Shown one piece after another: positions 1 through 36,940 of a stretch of DNA of 64,000 nt. The notes beneath the pieces are model-generated. The model did not search any database. It was not told the origin of the DNA and was given only the letters and a program-made list of their open reading frames with translations. Made by a program: the position numbers and the translations under genes. Origin of the DNA: an uncultured Muribaculaceae bacterium (lineage in GTDB: Bacteria; Bacteroidota; Bacteroidia; Bacteroidales; Muribaculaceae); assembly GCA_947627615.1 (NCBI GenBank), contig CANQWS010000003.1, positions 62,001 through 126,000 on the forward strand. Direction: 5' to 3'. How positions within the stretch are numbered: the stretch's first letter is position 1; every line of letters begins with the position of its first letter.

Positions 1-908
1 GTCTGCCGGGCAATCTGGTGAGTGGATTCATCTCCATCATGCGCGGATGCAACAATTTCTGCTCCTACTGCATAGTGCCCTACACCCGCGGCCGCGAGCG
101 CTCGCGCGAGGTTGACTCTATTCTGGCCGAACTGGCCGACCTGCGGGCCAAGGGCTACAAAGAGGTCACGCTGCTGGGCCAGAACGTGAATTCCTACAAC
201 TACCGCCCCACCGATGGCGAGCCGGTGACATTCGCGGGCCTTCTGGCGAGGGTAGCGGAGGCGGCTCCCGACATGAGGGTGCGGTTCACCACGTCGCATC
301 CCAAGGACATGACCGACGACATACTGGAGACCATAGCCCGGTATCCCAACATCTGCCATCACATCCATCTGCCGGTGCAGAGCGGCTCCGACGCCGTGCT
401 CAAGGCCATGAACCGACACTATACGAGGGAGTGGTATCTGGAGCGGGTTGCCGCCATAAAGCGCATAATCCCTGACTGCGGCATCACCACCGACATGTTC
501 ACCGGTTTCCACGGCGAGACCGAAGAGGACTTCGAGCAGACGCTGAGCCTGATGCGCGAGGTGGGCTTCGACGGGGCGTTCATGTTCAAATATTCGGAGC
601 GTCCGGGCACACTGGCCGCCCGCATGATGCCCGACAACGTGAGCGAGGAAGTGAAGGTTGATCGCCTGAACCGCATGATAGCGCTCCAGAACGAGCTGTC
701 GCTCGAATCCCACCGCCGGATGACGGGCAAGGTGGTGGAGGTGCTTGTGGAGGGCGTTGCCAAGCGTTCCAAAGAGCAGATGGTGGGCCGGACGAGCCAG
801 AATATGACGGTGGTGTTTCCGCGCGGCACATACCGCGTGGGCGATACGGTCAGGGTGCGCGTCACCGGGGCCACATCGGCCACGCTCACGGCCGAGCCGG
901 CCGAATGA
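1..908 (+). CDS. miaB: tRNA-2-methylthio-N6-dimethylallyladenosine synthase MiaB (5' truncated by window)
   Basis: Radical SAM methylthiotransferase that adds the 2-methylthio group to i6A37 of tRNAs reading UNN codons. The reading frame is open from base 3, so the listed GTG start at 18 is not the true start; the N-terminal UPF0004 domain lies outside the window. The radical SAM cluster motif CNNFCSYC follows directly after the sequence IMRG and is followed by YTRGRERSR, which is characteristic of MiaB rather than RimO or MtaB. Downstream are the SAM-barrel segments LLGQNVNSYN and HLPVQSGSD, and a C-terminal TRAM RNA-binding domain (about the last 65 residues, from GKVVEVLVEG). It ends 13 bases before the HipA-like gene on the same strand. 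High confidence. Confidence 0.95.
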   Translation, partial: LPGNLVSGFISIMRGCNNFCSYCIVPYTRGRERSREVDSILAELADLRAKGYKEVTLLGQNVNSYNYRPTDGEPVTFAGLLARVAEAAPDMRVRFTTSHPKDMTDDILETIARYPNICHHIHLPVQSGSDAVLKAMNRHYTREWYLERVAAIKRIIPDCGITTDMFTGFHGETEEDFEQTLSLMREVGFDGAFMFKYSERPGTLAARMMPDNVSEEVKVDRLNRMIALQNELSLESHRRMTGKVVEVLVEGVAKRSKEQMVGRTSQNMTVVFPRGTYRVGDTVRVRVTGATSATLTAEPAE

Positions 909-921
909 AAGGGGGAAGAGC

Positions 922-1710
922 ATGGACACGCTAAGACATCAGAAACTGACCCGCTACGTGGTGCCTCTGCGCGAAGGCGGCTCTCTGCCGGCCCTTGCGG
1001 AGGCCGATGACGGCTTCAAGTACGTGGTGAAGTTCCGCGGCGCGGGCCACGGTCCCAAGGCGCTGATAGCGGAGCTGATAGGTGGCGAGGTGGCCCGAAT
1101 GATGGGGCTCAACGTGCCGGAGCTTGTGTTTCTGGACGTTGACAGCCGTTTCGGAATCACCGAGGCCGACGAGGAAATCCAGGACCTGCTCAAAGCGAGC
1201 CAGGGCCTGAACATAGGGCTCCACTATCTGTCGGGCGCCCTCACCGTGGACCCCTATACCAGTCCGGTGGACGCCGTGACGGCCTCGCGCACAGTGTGGA
1301 CCGACGCTTTCCTGACCAACGTGGACCGCACGGTCCGTAACACGAACATGCTGCTGTGGCATGGCCGCGAGATATGGCTCATAGACCACGGCGCAGGGCT
1401 GATGTTCCATCATTCGTGGACTGACCCGATGGCATCGGCGCTGTCGCCGTTCGCCTACATAAAGGACCATGCCCTGCTGCACAAAGCTTCGCTGCTGAAG
1501 GAGGCCGACGAGCTGGCCCACAAGGTGATAACGCCGGCGGCGCTGCGCGAAATCACTGACATGATACCTGACGAATGGCTCCGCTGGCCGGGCGCGCCCG
1601 CCCCGGAGGCCGATATGCGCCGGACCTATCATGACTTTTTAGTTAGACGTCTCGAAAATTCAGAAATCTTCTTACGCCAGGCTATCGATGCAAGAAAATC
1701 ACTTATATGA
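922..1710 (+). CDS. HipA-like kinase-fold protein (HipA_2 type)
   Basis: A 262-residue protein with the layout of the short HipA-like kinase family: a glycine-rich N-terminal segment with a lysine in YVVKFRG, then EL-GG-EVARMMGLNVPELVFL, a central segment DAFLTNVDRTVRNTNML that resembles the catalytic loop (Asp and Asn of HxD/xxxxN type), and the metal-binding-like motif WLIDHGAGL. The family is widespread next to DUF3037 genes, and here the next gene overlaps its 3' end by 23 bases, so the two are probably translationally coupled. The protein is much shorter than true HipA (about 440 residues) and no HipB-like regulator is present, so a toxin role should not be assumed. The substrate is unknown. 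Family call fairly sure, function not. Confidence 0.75.
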   Translation: MDTLRHQKLTRYVVPLREGGSLPALAEADDGFKYVVKFRGAGHGPKALIAELIGGEVARMMGLNVPELVFLDVDSRFGITEADEEIQDLLKASQGLNIGLHYLSGALTVDPYTSPVDAVTASRTVWTDAFLTNVDRTVRNTNMLLWHGREIWLIDHGAGLMFHHSWTDPMASALSPFAYIKDHALLHKASLLKEADELAHKVITPAALREITDMIPDEWLRWPGAPAPEADMRRTYHDFLVRRLENSEIFLRQAIDARKSLI

Positions 1711-2071
1711 GTATGCCACGGTGCGTTATGTGCCGCGGGTTGAGCGCGAGGAATTCATCAACGTGGGCCTCGCCATGATGTGCAAGCGCCAGCGCTGGCT
1801 CAAGCTGCGCGTGAAGGCCGACCGCGGGCGCCTGTCGCTGTTTTCGGGCGAGGCCGACGTGGACGAGGTCATGGCCCATCTCCACGGCTTCGAGTCCATA
1901 GCCGACGGATGCCGTGATGCCGGCCCGATGGCGGACTGCCCGGTTGAGGAACGGTTCCGCTGGCTTACGGCCGAAAAGAGCGCCTGCCTGCAGACCTCGC
2001 GTCCGCACGCGGGGCTGACAGCCGACCTCGACGGAACGTTCGAGCGGCTGTTCAGCGAACTGGTGGACTGA
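1688..2071 (+). CDS. DUF3037 family protein
   Basis: A 127-residue cytoplasmic protein with no signal or membrane segment. The N-terminal YEYATVRYVPRVEREEFINVG is typical of DUF3037, whose function is unknown. It starts inside the 3' end of the HipA-like gene, and this gene order is a recurring pairing in bacteria, which suggests the two proteins act together. It ends 12 bases before the convergent glpF stop codon; a GC-rich inverted repeat in that gap could serve both directions but has no clear T-tract. Confidence 0.75.
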   Translation: MQENHLYEYATVRYVPRVEREEFINVGLAMMCKRQRWLKLRVKADRGRLSLFSGEADVDEVMAHLHGFESIADGCRDAGPMADCPVEERFRWLTAEKSACLQTSRPHAGLTADLDGTFERLFSELVD

Positions 2072-2083
2072 GCCGCAGGCCGG

Positions 2084-2848
2084 TCAGGGAATGGCCGGCT
2101 GCAGACGCAGATAGATGTAAAAAACGAGTACGGCGAGAGCGGTGCCGGCGAGCGGGCCGAGGATGGGAACCCATGAGTACCACCACTGGCTCGAACCTTT
2201 TCCCTTGATGTGGAGCACCTGATGGGCCAGACGCGGACCGAGGTCGCGGGCGGGGTTGATGGCATAGCCCGTGGTGCCTCCGAGCGCCATGCCGATGACC
2301 ATGACGAGGAATGCCACGGGGAGCGCTCCTATGGAACCGAGCCCTATTTCGGAGACGTTGCCGCGCTCGGCAAGGAACAGAATCACTATTATGAGCACGA
2401 ATGTGCCTATAAGCTCGGAGAAGAAGTTGCGTTTCAGGTTCCTGATTGCCGGGATGGTGGCGAATACGCCGAGCTTTGCGTCGCTGTCGGCGGTGCGGTC
2501 AAAGTGGTCCTTGTAGAAGAAATAGACCGTGAGGCCTCCGAGGAAAGCGCCGATGAGTTGCGAGACCATGTAGGGGATGACCATGGCCCAGTCGAATTTT
2601 CCGGCGAGCGCGAGGCCGAAGGTCACGGCCGGGTTGAGGTGGGCGCCGGTGTAGGGTCCGGCGATGAACACGCCGCACATCACGGCGAGACCCCAGGCTA
2701 TTGTTATGACTATCCATCCGGCGCCGGAGCCTTTGGAGTCTTTCAGAGTGGTGCATGCCACTACCCCGCATCCGAGAAGAATCATCACGAAGGTGCCGAG
2801 GAATTCAAAGAAGCATTGCAGAAAAATCGGAATTACGATTTGTTCCAT
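2084..2848 (-). CDS. glpF: Glycerol uptake facilitator (MIP/aquaglyceroporin)
   Basis: A 254-residue membrane channel of the major intrinsic protein family that lets glycerol cross the inner membrane. Both pore boxes are visible: HLNPAVT in the first half and AINPARDLGPR in the second. The Asp after NPAR in the second box is the usual mark of glycerol facilitators rather than water channels. Six hydrophobic segments plus the two half-helices are evident. It follows glpK on the same strand after 24 bases, so kinase and facilitator form one operon in which phosphorylation traps the incoming glycerol. Confidence 0.93.
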   Translation of the reverse strand: MEQIVIPIFLQCFFEFLGTFVMILLGCGVVACTTLKDSKGSGAGWIVITIAWGLAVMCGVFIAGPYTGAHLNPAVTFGLALAGKFDWAMVIPYMVSQLIGAFLGGLTVYFFYKDHFDRTADSDAKLGVFATIPAIRNLKRNFFSELIGTFVLIIVILFLAERGNVSEIGLGSIGALPVAFLVMVIGMALGGTTGYAINPARDLGPRLAHQVLHIKGKGSSQWWYSWVPILGPLAGTALAVLVFYIYLRLQPAIP

Positions 2849-2872
2849 GGTTAAAAAGATTTACGGGTTAGG

Positions 2873-4384
2873 TCAGATGAGGGGATTTGAATCGGAATCG
2901 GCTGTCAGGATGCGGCTCACGGCATTGTGCCATCCGTTGAGCTCGCGGGTCACGGCCTCCACGTTGCCCGAGGGCTTGAAGTCATGCTCCATCTGCCACT
3001 GGGAGTGGATTTCGTCGATGTCCTTCCAGTAGCCCACGGCGAGGCCGGCGAGGTAGGCGGCACCGAGAGCCGTTGTTTCGGTTATGCGGGGCCGGAGTAC
3101 GTCGGTGTTCAGTATGTCGGCCTGAAACTGCATGAGCAGATTGTTCTGCGAGGCGCCGCCGTCGACCTTCAGCTCTGAGATGCGGAGTCCGGAATCGAGT
3201 TCCATGGCTTTCACTATGTCATAGACCTGGAAGGCTATTCCCTGAAGGGCGGCCCGGGCAATGTGGGCCAGGGTGGTGCCGCGTGAGATGCCGGAGATGG
3301 TGCCGCGTGCATACTGGTCCCAGTAGGGTGCGCCGAGTCCTGTCAGGGCGGGAACGAAGTAGACGCCGTCAGTGTCAGGCACGGAGGCTGCAAGTGCTTC
3401 CACCTCCGACGACGAGGATATGCAGCGGAGGCCGTCGCGGAGCCACTGGACCACGGAACCGCCCACAAATATGGAGCCCTCGAGGGCGTAGGTCACCTCG
3501 TCGCCTATTTTCCAGGCTATGGTTGTCAACAGCCGGTTCTGCGACATGATGGGGCGTGGACCCGAGTTCATCAGGAGGAAGCAGCCGGTGCCGTATGTGT
3601 TTTTTACAGCACCCGGGCTGACGCACATCTGCCCGAACAGGGCCGACTGCTGGTCGCCGGCCACTCCGCAGATGGGTATCTCATGGGCGAAGATGGTGGT
3701 TGTGGTGTGGCCCATGATGCCGCTGCTGGGGCGCACTTCGGGCAGCATGGATTCAGGGATGTCGAAGAGTTCGAGCAGCTCCTTGTCCCACTGGAGGGCG
3801 TGGATGTTGAAGAGCATTGTGCGGGAGGCGTTGGTGACGTCAGTCACGTGGGCCCGGAAGCGGGTCAGGCAGGCGATGAGCCAGGTGTCGACGGTTCCGA
3901 AGGCGAGGCGTCCTTCGCGGGCCTTTTCGCGGGCGCCCTCCACGTTGTCAAGAATCCATTTTATCTTCGTGGCGCTGAAATAAGCGTCGATTATCAGTCC
4001 GGTTTTCTCGCGGATCATGTCGGCATAGCCTTCGTCGCGCAGATGGTCGCAGTATTCTGATGTGCGCCGGTCCTGCCAGACTATGGCATTGTAGACGGGC
4101 TCGCCTGTCTGGCGGTCCCAGACAATGGTTGTTTCGCGCTGGTTCGTAATGCCTATTCCGGCTATGTTTTTTCCGTTGATGCCCATTTTGGAGATGGCCT
4201 CGGCAATAACGGAGGCCTGTGAACCCCAGATCTGCCTCGGGTCATGCTCCACCCAGCCCGATTGCGGGAAAATCTGCGGGAATTCGTGCTGTGCCACCGA
4301 CCGGATGTTGCCGTCGTGGTCAAAAACTATGGCACGGCTTGAAGTGGTGCCCTGATCGAGCGAGAGGATAAATTTTTCTTCCAT
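2873..4384 (-). CDS. glpK: Glycerol kinase
   Basis: ATP-dependent phosphorylation of glycerol to glycerol-3-phosphate. FGGY-family features are clear: the N-terminal phosphate loop [11 protein letters not shown], the central [10 protein letters not shown], and the C-terminal adenosine-binding segment [10 protein letters not shown]. Length (503 residues) matches the family. The ORF track starts two codons earlier at a TTG; the ATG at 4384 ([11 protein letters not shown]) fits the family N-terminus better and was chosen. First gene of the glpK-glpF operon. No glycerol-3-phosphate dehydrogenase gene lies nearby. Confidence 0.95.
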
Positions 4385-6013: not shown

Positions 6014-9000
6014 TCACTTCTTTATGATTACGAACGAGGCGGGAGCGGCACCGTCGGTCGAGACGGAGAGCACGTAAGTGCCGGCCACGAGCGTCGAAAC
6101 GTCGATGTCATGGGCCTGACCCGCAACATTGTCCTCGGTCATTTCCATCATGGTCATGCCGTTGATGGCGGTGAGCTTCAGTGTCACGGCGGCAACATCG
6201 TCGGCGCAGGTCACGTGGAGGGTTTCAACAACGGGGTTGGGCCATACGGTGAGCGAGGACGCCAGAGTGATGTTGTCGATGGCGGCGGGAGTCTCAACCT
6301 TGAATGTGAGGGTGTTGGCTGTGGTGGCGCCCGATTCGTCGGTAGCCTCTACAACAGCTGTGGTCTCGCCCACGGCTTTTCCTACAAATATTGCGGAAGA
6401 AGCAGAAGTGAATGCCTCGATGACTGAAGGATCGGCAATCTCGATGTTGTAGGTCATCACTTCACCGTCAGGTTCGTTGAAGATGGTGTTGAAGTCAAGC
6501 ACCTCGGTGGAGCCGCCCACCTGAAGCACGTAAGGCTCTACGGCCAGGGCCTCGGGAGCGCGGTTGGTGCGCTCAACGGTGTAGCTGACGGTGTGGCCTG
6601 ACTCGGAACCGAACTTGTCGGCTGCCGACAGAGTGGCGGTGTAGACGCCATTGTCGCCGTAATCGGGAGCGATGTCAACGGTCACATTCACGGGACCAGT
6701 GACTCCGGTCACGTTCCATACATCCTCGTCACCTTCGGCTTTGACAGCCTCGGCGCCGGTGACGGCGGAGATGACAGCGAGGTTTCCGTTGTCGTCGAGA
6801 CGTACGGAGAAGTCCTCGTTCTCAGGTTCGGTGACGGTGAACTGAACTGACTGGCGCTGGCCTTCGGCCACGAGCACGTTGGCGGCATCGGATTCGATAA
6901 CCGGAGCGCCATTGTTGTCAAGCACCACCGGAATGTTCATCACGGGCTGCTGCGGGTCGTTGAGCTTGAGCACGAGAGTGGCCTTGTTGCCGGATTCGAG
7001 GGGAGCCGAAGCGGCGTTGACCTTCAGTTTGATCACGGTCTCGCCTGACGGGTCGACGAGCACGGTGCCGTCACCGTCGATGGTGAGCCAGCTTTCGCCC
7101 TTGACTGTCTCGAGGGCGGTTGTGCACCAACCGAGTGAGCCGTACTGGTCCTGGAACATGTCAGCGACATCGAACCATGAGACGCCTTCGGTCCATGCGC
7201 GGTAGCGGTCGCTTGTCACCTTGTCCTGCTTGGCAGCCATGGTAGCGGGCCATTCCTCGCCAACGGGGTAGGTAACAACGATGTTGAATGTCTGTCCGCC
7301 GGGGATGAATACACTCTTGTCCATGGGAACCACCACTGTCATGCTGGCAGCCGGAGAATGATTCTCACCGCTGTGGAACACGCCTGAGGCGAGTACGTTG
7401 CCGTTGTCGAGGTCGGAACCGCTGATAATCTCAACCTTGTAGTCGGCGTTCTTGGCCTGACCGAGGTGGATTATGGTGTAGACATGCGACAGGTTGAATC
7501 CGTCCTCCGGAGCAACCATCTCAGTAGCGGCCTTGAACAAGGCGTAGGTTTTTCCGCTACCGTAGTTGTAGACAGCTTCGGATACTTCCGAGTGGGGGTG
7601 ATAGAGAGCGCGGAGGTAATCGAACTCGGCTTTCGAGGGAGCGTCGAAAATGTCGCTGACCTCATCGGAAACGTCGCTCGGAACAACCGAGGGCTTGCCG
7701 ATGGTCTCAAGCACTTTCTGAGCCAGAGCGGCCTTGGCTGCCTTGGCTTCGGCAGCCGAAACGAGGGGAGCCACGCCGCCGCCGTCGCCAACTTCTTCGG
7801 TCTTGCCGGAGAGGTCGATAGTGGCGGTGCCTTTGAGGACGCCTTCGCCATAGTTGGCAACCACCACATCACGCTCGCCCTTGTAATCGGGTGCGGGAGC
7901 CTTGATGTAGATGCCCTGAACGTCGTCGGTGTAGGCCACAGGCGCGGGAGTCACCTTGAAGAGGAAGTTGATTTCCCTGGTCTGTGTTTCCTCACCGAGA
8001 CCTTCGATGTCAAACGTGAGTTTCACGGGGTATTCGCCGGGGGTGTAGGCGGTTTCGTTGGGCAGCATGGGGAGCGCGAAGCGGATAGCATCGGTGCCTA
8101 CGGCAACGGGCATTCCGGATTCAAACGGATACTGACCCCATCCCTTGACGGTCTCGCCGGTCCAATCGTCGATTCTCTCGCCATAGTAGAAGAGCATGAA
8201 TGCGGGTTCGGCACCCCATCCGTAGTCTTCGCCCATGGGGCCTTCGTAATGGATGTTGGAGATGGTGTAGGGGGCTGTGCCGGAGTTGGCGGCATCGAAG
8301 TAGATGCTGTACATGGCACCCATCTGTACCATGGGGTCGGAGACGTCAGTTGACTGCTGGCCGACGGCACGCTCTATTTCAAGCTGTTCCTCGGGGAGGA
8401 CGGGTTCGGGAGTACCGTTGACGGTGAGCGACACGGGAATCTCGATCTTACCGTTCGAGGGAACGTTGGTGGTCACGGTGATTGACGATGCGTATTCGCC
8501 GCCGAGGATATTGGCGTTGACCTTGATGTCGGCCACATCGCTCTGTCCTGCGGGGAGCGACATCTGAACAACGGGGCTGAACTCAACGGCGTTGTTGAAC
8601 TGGATGTAGCGGTCGGGCAGGCGGATGCTGTTCTTTCCGTTCTCGTCGGTGATACCGGCAAGACCGAAGGGCGAGTAGATCACGGGGTCGGTCACGTTGG
8701 AAGAGCCTCTGTAGACGAAGCGGAAGGTGCCGTCAGGTCTGAGCACGAGCTGGAAATCGACACCGATGTTCATGCTGTTGCCGTACTCGGTGAACGAAAT
8801 GACGGCGCGGTCAGCGTTCTCGTGGTGGTAGATACCGGCTGTCTTGGTCTCGTCCATTGAGTGGAGACCCCAGTAGGGAGCAATTATGTTGGTGAAATAA
8901 TTGTCGTTGGGGAATCCAGCGGGAGGTTCGGGCCAGATCTTGTCGTCGTTACGTTTGGTAAACGAAACGAAGCCTGTGTTGTAGACATACATTTTGGTGT

Positions 9001-31469: not shown

Positions 31470-31775
31470 GGGGCTGACAGCCCCGGGTTCCGGGGGATAG
31501 GGACTAAAAAGCCTTGTCTGGTGAAGGCGGGGAAAAGGAGTGGCTGCTTTAGCTGCCATAGCTACAGATAATTAGAGGTATTATAACCCCGAAGGGGTGG
31601 GTTACGGACCCCAATAATATAAGCCCGCGCCAGCGGCCGTGCTCATGGTAGAGACACACAACCACCCTTCCACAAACCCGGCCGCTGCGCGGGCTCTCAT
31701 CTTTTTTGCTCGGCTAACCGAGGGCCAAGGCCCCCGGTTAAGAACAACCCCGTGCCTCCGGCACTCCGCGAGGGG
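31470..31775 (+). repeat. Cluster of inverted repeats
   Basis: Hairpins in order: GGGGCT-gac-AGCCCC (31470-31484); CCCCGG-gtt-CCGGGG (31481-31495), which shares its CCCC with the first so the two exclude each other; CCCC-gaa-GGGG (31587-31597); a 17-base-pair stem with one bulged C and about 40 bases of loop (31622-31695), followed by CTTTTTT; TAACCGAGGGCC/GGCCCCCGGTTA (31715-31740, one mismatch); and GTGCC-tcc-GGCAC inside CCCC/GGGG (31748-31775). The third stem plus T-run could terminate transcription entering from the left. Confidence 0.7.
31518..31542 (+). repeat. 25-base direct repeat, left copy
   Basis: Matches 36754-36778 at 23 of 25 bases, in the same orientation; the shared core is GGAAAAGGAGTG. 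Each copy is followed by a segment ending in AGCTGCCATA. The copies lie on either side of the three-gene RHS module. Confidence 0.65.
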
Positions 31776-31872: not shown

Positions 31873-32961
31873 ATGAGATATTTACGACCAGTCATCTGCT
31901 TTCTTGCATTGCTTTTTCTGTGTCCGGTTGCGGCAGGGAAGATAATGCGGAACACGAACTGTCTGCGTTCAGGCGATTCATTCATCATGGTCCCTGTGAC
32001 TTTTGCGGATACCATGTCTGCCGGTGACAACAGACTGTGGGACCTGTCCGGCACAAAAATCTGCGGTAAATCCAGAAAACTCACACTGAACCGTTCGGGA
32101 GAGACGGATGATTCCTTGTATTGCATAGTGGGGAATACGGCCTATCACTTCCTGTGTCACGGTGATTCCGTGTCATTGAATGCCTTTGAGAACAATCTCT
32201 CGGACATGGCATATTCCCGGAAGGAATTGCTCCTTGCGTTCCCTTTTGATTTTAACTCACAGGTCTCCGGGGCATTCTGCGGGACAGGACGTTACGCCGA
32301 CAAATGGCACCATGTAATGAACGGAAATTATCGTAGCGTTGCCGATGCGCGCGGCTCCCTGATAACTATTGATGGCGATACCATAAACAATGTGACGAGA
32401 ATCAGCACTGTCCGCAATATGAACAGCCTATATCTGGCTGCCGACAGCTCTGTTGCCGACAGCATGTATCTATGGCAACACGACAGCCGGCTGTATGCTC
32501 CCGGCTACCGATACCCTCTCATGATGTCATCGGCTGTTTATGCTGCCGACGGTATAACCCGGATTTCCCACAAAGCCTGGTATATACCCGCTGACGCCAT
32601 AGAAGCTCTCGATGACCCCGACAACAGCGACATACGTAGGGAGGAAAAAGACCGCAGAAATGTGTCCACCTCTCCGGAGTCAGATTCCGGCATGGATAAA
32701 GACCGCAACATAGCCTACAGTTTCAGACAGGACAGAGGGACCGAGAGCGTCACCATAGAATTTTCCGTAGCCCGGCCGGCAGACATCGAGCTTGTCCTGA
32801 GCGACATGGGCGGAATCGTTTACCGCAGGGAGTCCACGCATGCCTATCCCGGCGAAACCTATAGTGTCACTTTCGATTATGGCGGATTACCCTTCTCCGC
32901 GGCTTACGGTGTGGGGATAACCGCCGGTCAGGAACATTATTCCGAGAAATTCTACCGTTAG
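31873..32961 (+). CDS. Secreted protein of unknown function with a sorting-like C-terminus, upstream of RHS
   Basis: A 362-residue protein not recognised as a named family. It has a Sec signal peptide (MRYLRPVICFLALLFLCPVAAG) and no further membrane segment. The body is beta-rich. The last 70 residues (FSVARPADIELVLSDMGGIVYRR ... GVGITAGQEHYSEKFYR) have the spacing of a type A type IX secretion sorting domain, including the final xxKFxR in the place of the usual xxKxxK; this is a resemblance and not a firm call. It ends 12 bases before the RHS gene and shares its promoter, so it probably serves export, display or chaperoning of the RHS protein, or is an accessory effector. Confidence 0.7.
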   Translation: MRYLRPVICFLALLFLCPVAAGKIMRNTNCLRSGDSFIMVPVTFADTMSAGDNRLWDLSGTKICGKSRKLTLNRSGETDDSLYCIVGNTAYHFLCHGDSVSLNAFENNLSDMAYSRKELLLAFPFDFNSQVSGAFCGTGRYADKWHHVMNGNYRSVADARGSLITIDGDTINNVTRISTVRNMNSLYLAADSSVADSMYLWQHDSRLYAPGYRYPLMMSSAVYAADGITRISHKAWYIPADAIEALDDPDNSDIRREEKDRRNVSTSPESDSGMDKDRNIAYSFRQDRGTESVTIEFSVARPADIELVLSDMGGIVYRRESTHAYPGETYSVTFDYGGLPFSAAYGVGITAGQEHYSEKFYR

Positions 32962-32973
32962 AGAAAGCCTGCC

Positions 32974-35900
32974 ATGAAAGTCACTGACCTGTTATATATG
33001 CTTGTTCTGCTTCCCTTTGCCATCTCAGCGGAAGTCAACTATCTTGAAGGCCCTACGGCCGGCCTTTCGCCCACGGCAAAGTCTTTCCAGCGCTACGGTG
33101 AAATCCCGGTCTCGCTCTACACGGGTACCCCGAATATATCCGTTCCTCTTACAACGATGAAATCCGGCAGCCTGACAGTGCCGGTGGAGCTTCCTCCCAT
33201 CTTCCCCTCTGACCCTGACAACTCGCAGCCGGAAATGTCCGCGGCCTGTTATTCACTGACGGAATACGAGCCGTCGCCGCTTCAACGGCCTATCCGCCAG
33301 TATTCTCCAAGCGAATACGGACTCAGCGCCGACACTGCCGTCACATACGAATACGCGCTCAATCACGGCGACGGACTGTTGAACTGCATCTGCTTCTCTG
33401 TGACCGACACGCCGCTGCAGCCGGGTGTCCCGGTCTCGGTGAGATGCTCGGCATCGGCCGGAGGTTCTGTCTATTATTCTCCGGGTGAGCTGACGGTGGT
33501 CCGCACCACTGACGAGGACGGCCATACGTCCTACGAGTTCCACGATGTCTATGACCGCACGGTACTCTCGCGGCGCATGCTCGACGACGGCTCTCCTGCC
33601 GACACCTATTACTGCTATGACTCCTTCGGCAACCTTACGGCCGTGCTGCCGCCGGAGGCCTCGTCGCGCATAGCCGGGCCCACGGTCATGGTGTCGGGGC
33701 AGTCGGAGATACTTGACGGTTACTGCTATGTCTACACCTATAACTCCCGCGGCCTCATGGCCTCGAAGAAGTTGCCCGGCTGTCCGAAAGTCATCAATCA
33801 GTATGACGTGACGGACCGTCTGATAGCGTGGCAGGACGGCAACCTCCGCCAATTTGGGCTGTGGCGCTTCGAGCTGGCCGACGAATTCGGACGCCCCTGC
33901 CTGAGCGGGACATGCTCGTCATTGGGTCAGAATGCCACCGCTTCCATGGTGCGCGCCCGCCGTGACCAGACCGGAACACTGGCCGGCTACAAAGTGACCG
34001 GAGCCGATCTGGCAGACGCCTACGTGCTTTCGGCAAGCTATTACGATGATTACACATTCATAGGCCTTGACGGATTCCCCGAGGCGTCCGTGATGGATTT
34101 CCGCGCCGCCGGTGACTACGGCGACCGCAATCCCGATGCACGGGGCAAACTCACCGGCACCATGACGGCCCTTGACCCCGGAGCCGGCGCAAGCGCCTAC
34201 AAAGGAAAATATCTCTACACGGCCATGTACTACGATGTCCATGACCGGGTGGTGCAGAGCGTTGCCACCAACCATCTCGGGGGAACCGACCGCACGTTCA
34301 CGGCCTACGATTTCACCGGCCATCCCGTCAGCACGGAAACCGTCCACACGGTGGCGGGTGCCGGACAGGAGACAGTGCAGCAGACGCAGCGCACCTACGA
34401 CCGTCAGGGACGTCCGCTGACCGTTGACCACCGCATGGGTCGCGAAGGGGTGTGGACAAGCCTCTCGTCCATGGCCTACGACCGCCTCGGGCGTCTCGGC
34501 TCGGAGCAGCGGGGCACTGTCGGAACGGCCGCAATGACCTACAGCTACGACCTGCGTTCGCGTCTCACCTCAATGAGTTCCACACTCTACGGCCAGAACC
34601 TCCGTTACACCCCGGGGGACAACATCGCCTCGATGACATGGAGCGCGGGCCCCTGCAGACCGCAGCGGAGCTACGAATTCGGATACGACGGCCTTTCCCG
34701 TCTGACCTGTGCCCGTTATGACGACAGCAGCGGGGGCAAAGGCAAGTTCGACACCTCATATACCTACGACCTCAACGGCAACATCACCGCCCTGACCCGC
34801 AAGGGCGACATGAGTCCCTTCTCGGCCGGCAGATATCCCAGGCCCGTCACCATAGACAGCCTGACGCTCGAATACTCCGGCAACAGACTCATCCGCGTCA
34901 CTGATGCGGCCGCCGGACCGTTCCATCAGGGAGTGTTCCACTTCATCGACGGTGCCGACGAGCCGGTGGAATACCTCTATGACGACAACGGCAACACCGT
35001 CAGGGACATCAACCGCGGAATCGTGGCGGGCCATTTCGATTTCAACAACCGCCCGCGGATGCTGGAGTTCGCCGACGGGTCCTCCACCGCCTATCTCTAC
35101 GACGATACCGGCACAAAGCTGCGCACCATCCATCGTGTGGCCACGGTGCCTGTGGCCATTCCGGGAAGCGAAGGAGCGGCCGGCTTAAGCCGCCACGCTG
35201 CAAATGGGCTATCCGGCAGTTCAGGCGATGTGTCAGCTGAAGCAGACACTCCTGCCGCTGCGTCGGCGATTGCCGAGACCGTGACTGACTATTGCCGCGG
35301 CATTATCTATGAGGACGGCGAAATCTCACGCATAAACCTTGACGGCGGCTATCTGAGCTACACGGACCCTGCGGGCAACCGGCTGACGGAGCCGCAATAT
35401 CACTTCTATCTGCATGACCACTTGGGCAACAACCGCGCGGACGTCAGCGCCTCGGGGCTTGTGTGTCAGCAAACGGACTACTACCCCTACGGACTCCCCA
35501 TGAGTTCGAGCGCCAACACATCCTATCAGCGCTGGCTCTTCGGCGGCAAGGAGCTGGACCGCATCTCCGGCCTCGACCTCTACGACCAGGAAGCCCGCGC
35601 CTACGACCCCGCCCTCGGCCGCTTCCGCTCCGTGGACGCATTCGCCGAGATCGATTATGACATATCTTCTTTTGTTTATTGCGGCAGTAATCCCATAATT
35701 CGGTTCGACTCTGATGGAAATATTTTTGATACTATATGGGATGTCGGGAATGTCATCTATGATGTTGGGGCAGCAGTTTACAATCATGTAAAAGGAGACC
35801 ATGAAACGGCAAAAGGACATTGGGCGGATGCTGGATTTGACGTAGCTGCAGCTTTAATTCCATGTGTTCCTGCCGGCGCAACAAAGGCTTTTAAAGTAGC

Positions 35901-36300
35901 TTCTAAAACAGCAAAAAGCGTTGATAAGGTTTCAGACGTTAAAAAAACTACTGAAGCAGCATCTGAAGTTGCTAAAGCTACAGATAAATCTGCTGAGGTT
36001 AATAATTCAAAAGCACTTCTAAAAAAGGGGCGCTCTGGTAGGCAGGCAAAGCTAAAAGAATTGGGAAATGACCCTAAGCTGGGTAAAGCAGACCGTGGGT
36101 GGATTAAACAAGAGCAAAATCGGAAGCAAAGAGGTAAACGTACTCCCATACGTAATCCCAAAGGAAATGTTCTTGCTCATCCCCGCGGCAAAGAAGCTTC
36201 TAAAGGTCATTCTTACCGAGAGAGTAACCTCCAACTTGAAAGTAATCATAAGTTACAACATAAGTACGACAATAATGGAAGACGAAACAAGCCCAAATGA
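32974..36300 (+). CDS. RHS repeat protein with C-terminal Ntox8-like polymorphic toxin domain
   Basis: A 1108-residue exported protein (signal peptide MKVTDLLYMLVLLPFAISA). The N-terminus has the Bacteroidetes RHS opening LSPTAKSFQRYGEIPVSLYTGTPNISVPL but then lacks the long domain that normally follows, so it is short for the class. YD/RHS repeats run from about 200 to 830 (YDSFGNLT, YDRLGRLG, YDLNGNI, YDDTGTKL). The RHS-associated core is at about 810-905 (HDHLGNNRADV, GGKELDR, YDQEARAYDPALGRF). After the core the DNA turns abruptly AT-rich. The last 75 residues (DRGWIKQEQN ... IRNPKGN.LAHPRGKEASKGHSY ... HKLQHKYDNNGR) match the polymorphic toxin type 8 pattern as I remember it, a predicted RNase. 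The 3' end overlaps the DUF2750 gene by 26 bases. Probable contact-dependent antibacterial effector. Confidence 0.88.
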   Translation: MKVTDLLYMLVLLPFAISAEVNYLEGPTAGLSPTAKSFQRYGEIPVSLYTGTPNISVPLTTMKSGSLTVPVELPPIFPSDPDNSQPEMSAACYSLTEYEPSPLQRPIRQYSPSEYGLSADTAVTYEYALNHGDGLLNCICFSVTDTPLQPGVPVSVRCSASAGGSVYYSPGELTVVRTTDEDGHTSYEFHDVYDRTVLSRRMLDDGSPADTYYCYDSFGNLTAVLPPEASSRIAGPTVMVSGQSEILDGYCYVYTYNSRGLMASKKLPGCPKVINQYDVTDRLIAWQDGNLRQFGLWRFELADEFGRPCLSGTCSSLGQNATASMVRARRDQTGTLAGYKVTGADLADAYVLSASYYDDYTFIGLDGFPEASVMDFRAAGDYGDRNPDARGKLTGTMTALDPGAGASAYKGKYLYTAMYYDVHDRVVQSVATNHLGGTDRTFTAYDFTGHPVSTETVHTVAGAGQETVQQTQRTYDRQGRPLTVDHRMGREGVWTSLSSMAYDRLGRLGSEQRGTVGTAAMTYSYDLRSRLTSMSSTLYGQNLRYTPGDNIASMTWSAGPCRPQRSYEFGYDGLSRLTCARYDDSSGGKGKFDTSYTYDLNGNITALTRKGDMSPFSAGRYPRPVTIDSLTLEYSGNRLIRVTDAAAGPFHQGVFHFIDGADEPVEYLYDDNGNTVRDINRGIVAGHFDFNNRPRMLEFADGSSTAYLYDDTGTKLRTIHRVATVPVAIPGSEGAAGLSRHAANGLSGSSGDVSAEADTPAAASAIAETVTDYCRGIIYEDGEISRINLDGGYLSYTDPAGNRLTEPQYHFYLHDHLGNNRADVSASGLVCQQTDYYPYGLPMSSSANTSYQRWLFGGKELDRISGLDLYDQEARAYDPALGRFRSVDAFAEIDYDISSFVYCGSNPIIRFDSDGNIFDTIWDVGNVIYDVGAAVYNHVKGDHETAKGHWADAGFDVAAALIPCVPAGATKAFKVASKTAKSVDKVSDVKKTTEAASEVAKATDKSAEVNNSKALLKKGRSGRQAKLKELGNDPKLGKADRGWIKQEQNRKQRGKRTPIRNPKGNVLAHPRGKEASKGHSYRESNLQLESNHKLQHKYDNNGRRNKPK

Positions 36301-36700
36301 ACTTTGGATCTCCAAAGAAGAATTTAACGCACTTAACAAGTGCTCTTCAGATGTCAGATATAAGTATGCCTTGAAAAGGATTGCTGCAATGGAAACTCTA
36401 TGGTTAATTTCAGAATCCGAAGATGATGAATATATCGCCTATCAAATTTGTGACAATGAACGTTTTCTTCCAATATGGTCTTCAAAGGAATATGCCCAGG
36501 CTTTTTGTGTTGAGGATTTTAGTTCATGCAAATGCACACCGATAACTCTTGAGTATTTTTGTGAAACCATAATCGATTTTATCTGCGAAAAAAAGCTGCT
36601 TATCAATGTATTCCCTACCCAAAAAGAATCATTTGGCAAAATAGTAGATTTAAACACTTTTGTCAATGATTTAAGTGTAGAATTGGACGATTATAAATAA
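36275..36700 (+). CDS. DUF2750 family protein, likely immunity protein to the RHS toxin
   Basis: A 141-residue cytoplasmic protein. The ORF track begins at 36068, but the upstream part reads through the RHS toxin in another frame; the ATG at 36275 (MEDETSPNELWISKEEF) is the sensible start. DUF2750 features are the central LWLISESEDDEYIAYQICDNERFLPIWSSKEYAQAF and the C-terminal LLINVFPTQKESFGKIVD. DUF2750 genes are often found directly after polymorphic toxins. The gene overlaps the toxin end by 26 bases and shares its AT-rich composition, unlike the rest of the window, so toxin tip and immunity gene probably arrived together. Immunity role is an inference from position. Confidence 0.82.
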   Translation: MEDETSPNELWISKEEFNALNKCSSDVRYKYALKRIAAMETLWLISESEDDEYIAYQICDNERFLPIWSSKEYAQAFCVEDFSSCKCTPITLEYFCETIIDFICEKKLLINVFPTQKESFGKIVDLNTFVNDLSVELDDYK

Positions 36701-36753
36701 CCCGATTCCAAATACCCTAATTAATCCTCTCATGAATATGTTAAATGTTTTGG

Positions 36754-36778
36754 CTGGTGAATGCGAGGAAAAGGAGTG
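36754..36778 (+). repeat. 25-base direct repeat, right copy, with adjoining hairpin
   Basis: Second copy of the repeat at 31518-31542 (23 of 25 identical). It is followed by a perfect hairpin ATGGCAGCT-ga-AGCTGCCAT (36797-36816), whose 3' arm is also shared with the left copy. It marks the right side of the RHS module. Confidence 0.65.
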
Positions 36779-36882
36779 CCCGCGGCGAGGGTTTTGATGG
36801 CAGCTGAAGCTGCCATACCTTGTGGTGGGGAAAAAGAGGTGGAAAATGGGGAGAAAATGATGGAGAATGAAGCAAAAAGGTG

Positions 36883-36890
36883 TATATTTG
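36883..36890 (+). promoter_or_regulatory. Putative -7 box of the hybrid two-component regulator
   Basis: TATATTTG matches the -7 consensus exactly and lies 51 bases before the GTG start. No TTG is seen at the -33 spacing, so the promoter is probably weak, as expected for a regulator gene. Confidence 0.5.
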
Positions 36891-36940
36891 CAATAGATAA
36901 TAAACCTCTGAAGATAATCATCATCCCCTGACCTGACACC

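Follow-up and report, generated by a model that had tools for sequence, protein, structure and literature searches.

The question raised by this locus is whether the C-terminal tip of an RHS gene, together with the gene following it, belongs to the DNA in which it lies or was brought in as a unit, and whether the carrier in its present form can deliver such a tip. In the window, by which we mean the whole stretch of 64,000 nucleotides analysed here, the RHS gene (32974-36300, 1108 aa, with a signal-peptide-like start and a collapsed shell) is located on the + strand, as are gene A, the immunity gene, the domains of the RHS protein and the flanking repeat copies described below. We regard it as part of a polymorphic RHS toxin-immunity locus, in which the AT-rich cassette at 35653-36700 is a horizontally acquired replacement with its left crossover inside the core coding sequence, and give this reading a probability of about 0.9. 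The process, tip exchange at the RHS core, is known already and is seen here in a new member.

Composition seam and cassette edges

Third-position GC (GC3) along the 1108-codon RHS gene showed a single best change-point at nucleotide 35653, GC3 falling from 0.746 before this position to 0.270 after it, with a log-likelihood gain of 83.4 against a maximum of 9.9 over 2000 permutations. When the analysis was restricted to the tip and the 350 codons that precede the end of the core, the break stayed where it was, with a 2-unit support interval of 35650-35662. The RHS core domain TIGR03696 was detected at residues 836-915 (35479-35718; 54.5 bits, cut-off 32.5). Since this domain ends at residue 915, the seam is located inside the core, about 21 codons before its end, and the last 21 or so core residues (YDISSFVYCGSNPIIRFDSDGN) fall in the AT-rich part. 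The sequence-only reading had placed the composition switch at about 35650, just after the core; the position stands, but the break lies within TIGR03696 and not behind it. The codon use of the RHS and immunity genes was compared with that of the window genes. The GC content was 0.41 for the tip and 0.34 for the immunity gene against 0.57 for the window, and the tip/immunity stretch was the lowest in GC among equal-length stretches of the window taken in 50-nt steps, in agreement with the earlier claim that AT-richness persists through the toxin domain and the DUF2750 gene. Low GC extends past the immunity gene, across intergenic DNA (44% GC), until about 36940; as for a displaced old tip, no further core or tip was found at 36700-36940.

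The cassette consists of the core end, a pre-toxin linker (35719-36021), the Ntox8 toxin domain and the immunity gene. The closest relative of this cassette occurs, in detached form, in Prevotella sp. BV3P1 (L059), and shows 87% identity in the toxin domain and 57% in the immunity protein. By BLAST, nucleotide homology between L059 and the window is limited to 35675-36700 (69%). In a global alignment the identity was 0.30-0.50 up to 35680, mostly 0.6-0.8 for 35680-36700 and 0.33-0.43 past the immunity stop, indicating that the homology is bounded on the left by the composition seam and on the right by the immunity stop. The GC content of the cassette is equal in the two organisms (tip, 0.41; immunity gene, 0.34). 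In L059 the core fragment preceding the Ntox8 tip is out of frame with the tip, the break being at a run of T, and the tip is thus detached and probably silent. The same Prevotella locus includes, at about 0-9000, an AT-rich region in which small ORFs and detached RHS tips follow one another, with another core at 7024-7323.

Among the RHS genes of the family tested (n=18, including that of the window), a sharp GC3 drop was detected in 16, the best break of these 16 being located between 43 codons before and 40 codons after the D-x-x-G of the core. The shell relatives within the family (35-50% identity) carry other tips. Both a composition break at the core and non-homologous tips on related shells are therefore present at the window locus; since no strain of the same species with another tip was in the sample, the evidence for the exchange comes solely from comparisons across species. 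The earlier proposal that the tip had been swapped by recombination at the conserved core is supported by the seam, by the edges of the Prevotella cassette and by the fact that in all 47 relatives Ntox8 is immediately followed by a DUF2750 gene.

This arrangement is similar to the C-terminal displacement of Rhs proteins described by Jackson et al. 2009 (PMC2935791), with a GC-rich core, a GC-poor tip and recombination in core sequence, and with detached tips such as that of Prevotella. That model was described for Enterobacteria, where the old tip is often found downstream but is missing in some published loci; the window locus, in contrast, carries no displaced downstream tip, and its crossover lies inside the core. 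The locus is a clear-cut example of tip exchange at a Bacteroidales RHS locus, in which an independent homologue fixes both cassette edges. It also shows that the left crossover can fall within the coding sequence of the core, the final core residues then being carried along with the toxin. The TANFOR polymorphic toxins of Bacteroidetes (PMC7073777) are comparable in their large carriers, their T9SS-encoding hosts and their swappable tips with immunity genes, but the carrier here is RHS and no TANFOR model matched.

The pre-toxin linker is shared in part with another genome (G204), where a window-like linker leads to a different C-terminal domain, not Ntox8, while relatives in Enterobacter and Anoxybacillus share the toxin domain only, without the linker. 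As judged from these sequences, there is a second, inner cassette boundary between the linker and the toxin domain. G204 carries two short RHS ORFs in tandem (L046, 9578-14137), whose cores are nearly identical but whose tips differ; one of the two has the linker of the window.

Collapsed shell and delivery

In five relatives (G216, G008, G231, G192 and G221), a three-gene operon A-B-C was found, in which A measures 365-395 aa, B 953-983 aa and C 1172-1426 aa; gene C contains the core and also DUF6443 (the latter shown for G216). The window retains the conserved first gene A (31873-32961, 362 aa; 30-43% identity to A of the five relatives), which has no match to any Pfam or NCBIfam family and of which the C-terminus resembles a T9SS sorting tail by eye, with no profile match. 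Residues 1-73 of the RHS protein (32974-33192) come from the N-terminus of gene B (41-73% identity to B up to about residue 70-96), and the shell part at 33250-35652 matches gene C of the five relatives from about residue 410-440 (35-50% identity), the match to the shorter C of G221 beginning at its residue 131. The RHS gene of the window is thus a fusion in frame of B residues 1-73 with C from about residue 410-440, and the loss, by arithmetic from the lengths of the relatives, is about 4 kb, covering the greater part of B and the initial third of C. As B after residue 73 and the first 410-440 or so residues of C are absent, the locus is classed as a shortened, not a complete, RHS locus. The RHS_repeat profile stayed below its cut-off on the RHS protein.

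A second RHS gene is present on another contig of the same genome (C76; L127 645-3047, 800 aa; unit 645-3637), in which a B-like N-terminus runs, across a gap of 232 residues, in frame into a core, most of the shell being absent. It carries an AT-rich tip, the GC3 break again lies within the core, and the overlapping 197-aa gene after this tip may be its immunity gene. Among the loci compared, only these two frames combine a B-like start with a core, the comparison being limited by single-gene forms of about 2000 aa that are cut at locus ends. The occurrence of two collapsed shells in one genome is the less expected part of the finding, and the in-frame joins might be selected or might be due to chance. 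A complete B acting in trans was considered and rejected, since the search of the genome detected B sequence only as the fused 5' end and as an incomplete B-like stretch on contig C76.

The A-RHS-immunity unit is bracketed by a 29-bp direct repeat (31514-31542 and 36750-36778, 26/29 identical), for which a search of the 3.36-Mb genome allowing up to 3 mismatches gave these two copies only, suggesting that the whole unit was itself inserted, apart from the tip exchange. The unit sits inside a polysaccharide-utilisation locus of the alpha-mannan type (18859-40930), between GH97 and a hybrid two-component regulator, with SusC, SusD, SusE, two GH76, GH125 and GH97 upstream and the regulator downstream. 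In a related locus of G054 (L121; SusC 80%, SusD 77%, GH97 63% and regulator 52% identity), no match to A, RHS or immunity gene was found between GH97 and the regulator, which is oriented differently there.

With its apparent signal peptide, the RHS protein would be exported through Sec, possibly via T9SS. By analogy with characterised Rhs proteins, self-cleavage at the core would free the tip, which would then enter a competitor cell and cut nucleic acid (RNA, as predicted), while DUF2750 would bind and silence the tip in the producer cell. The T9SS marker SprA was found in the genome, and sorting-domain profiles gave no match on the gene A product or the RHS protein. Together with SusC/D and the closest relative of the tip, SprA suggests a Bacteroidales host, very tentatively one of the Muribaculaceae. 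As to T6SS, VipB and VasE were not found in the genome under conditions where the positive control was detected, and TssC (PF17541) gave no match there in a search that carried no control signal. Since the shell lacks about 4 kb, its competence for delivery is doubtful.

One possibility, to which we assign slightly less than an even chance, is that the locus no longer delivers, the shell being a relic and the toxin-immunity pair either baggage or a toxin-antitoxin-like module. The stretch of about 4 kb missing in comparison with the five relatives and the lack of a complete B gene anywhere else in the genome agree with such a state, as does the description, in PMC7043789, of a Salmonella rhs tip as a type II toxin-antitoxin module. 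Against this, the frame, the signal-peptide-like start, the core and the motifs are intact over 1108 codons, all of which a long-dead gene would lose. It is also conceivable, but unlikely, that both short RHS toxins of this genome (1108 and 800 aa), which would be exported through Sec and which collapsed separately in frame and yet kept a signal-peptide-like start, core, tip and overlapping downstream gene, are still working, either as a reduced carrier without a closed cocoon or as a secreted toxin-antitoxin-like form. The collapsed shells raise the question of what portion of an RHS shell is required to export a toxin tip in T9SS bacteria. An error of assembly might be suspected for a draft genome of 118 contigs, but is quite improbable in view of the in-frame junction, the genome completeness of 99.8% and the presence, on another contig, of a second RHS gene whose in-frame collapse lies at another position.

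Ntox8 tip and immunity protein

The C-terminal 92 residues of the RHS protein (36022-36297) match Ntox8 (PF15545) with 57-58 bits (cut-off 25), and both motifs of this domain, HxR (HPR, 36178-36186) and HxxxH (HKLQH, 36247-36261), are intact; the histidines H53, H76 and H80 are invariant across 40 aligned relatives. The immunity gene (36275-36700, 141 aa) matches DUF2750, also named Imm16, with 66.8 bits (PF11042, cut-off 27), and its ATG start gives an overlap of 26 bp with the toxin stop. An Ntox8-like tip and a DUF2750 protein of 141 residues had both been proposed in the sequence-only reading, and both identifications hold in these HMM searches. The pairing itself is already known, as Zhang et al. 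2012 (PMC3482391) described Ntox8 with the HxR and HxxxH motifs as a predicted RNase whose metal dependence is uncertain and named Imm16 (DUF2750) as its immunity protein. The toxin domain and motifs, the downstream immunity family and the RHS type of carrier are the same as in that description, in which Bacteroidetes are listed; the pair is no different, but the carrier shell is shortened here. The action of the tip as an RNase is thus a prediction from the literature (PMC3482391).

An AlphaFold2 model of the Ntox8 domain (pLDDT 89) showed two helices followed by two strands and a final helix; H53 comes directly behind strand 1, and H76/H80 belong to the final helix. The strand-strand-helix end of the model puts the conserved histidines in positions like those of His-Me-finger nucleases, an arrangement that colicin-type HNH nucleases are known to have. 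The tip might accordingly be supposed to cut DNA through an HNH-like (His-Me finger) active site, and not RNA, an idea that we hold only tentatively and consider less probable than its contrary. Colicin E7 and teneurins were among the fold matches of the model, but these matches were all weak, with no significant hit (best E 3.2); furthermore, no Pfam HNH family matches the Ntox8 domain, and the activity predicted for Ntox8 in the literature is that of an RNase. Sequence searches of solved structures gave no relative of the toxin or of the immunity protein. The model of the immunity protein resembles TTHA0547 (2z0r; probability 1.00, TM 0.54/0.75, E about 1e-3), a protein without assigned function.

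Spread of the Ntox8-DUF2750 pair

A scan of one genome per species yielded 47 loci encoding Ntox8-domain relatives in Bacteroidota, Proteobacteria, Bacillota and Verrucomicrobiota and in single members of other phyla. The DUF2750 profile used for the linkage count given above was made from six members, with one round of re-estimation using its own matches; a clear second copy of DUF2750 was detected at three loci (L061, L066 and L091). A plasmid of Enterobacter hormaechei encodes an RHS protein with an Ntox8 tip 65% identical to that of the window, followed by DUF2750, and the same pair is present on an Anoxybacillus plasmid as a cassette relative at 50% identity; in both, the cassette relative is on an unrelated carrier. 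The Enterobacter locus (L056, 1173-5697) is on a conjugative IncC plasmid (NZ_CP133339.1). In Pectobacterium sp. PL152, two Ntox8-DUF2750 cassettes (L072 and L073) are located about 6.5 kb apart on one chromosome, one on a long frame (1558 aa) and the other on a short one (156 aa).

A search of a phage collection for Ntox8 gave no match, and of the 396 genomes searched from the phylum with the Pfam model of Ntox8, that of the window alone gave one. As this genome has no second match to Ntox8 or DUF2750, a donor cassette still residing in it was ruled out. Within the family, none of the 296 other genomes sampled (297 including that of the window) carries the domain, the match in G204 being to the linker. 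AT-rich tips are general among the RHS genes of the family, so that composition alone neither dates nor proves an event at the window locus. The view that the tip is native to its locus and AT-rich through the codon bias of tips as such, with no exchange here, is nevertheless highly improbable, because the break can be placed to within a few codons and lies within a domain, the nearest homologue, in Prevotella, ends at the same edge, and the domain is absent from those 296 genomes.

DUF2750 homologues without a toxin were found in three further genomes (L048 in G092, L049 in G182 and L050 in G130), each within a run of small unrelated ORFs. These small ORFs share their first codons (ATGAAACTGACCGATAAA, often continuing CGATTTTGG), and the runs look like an immunity-gene array built through a common start segment.
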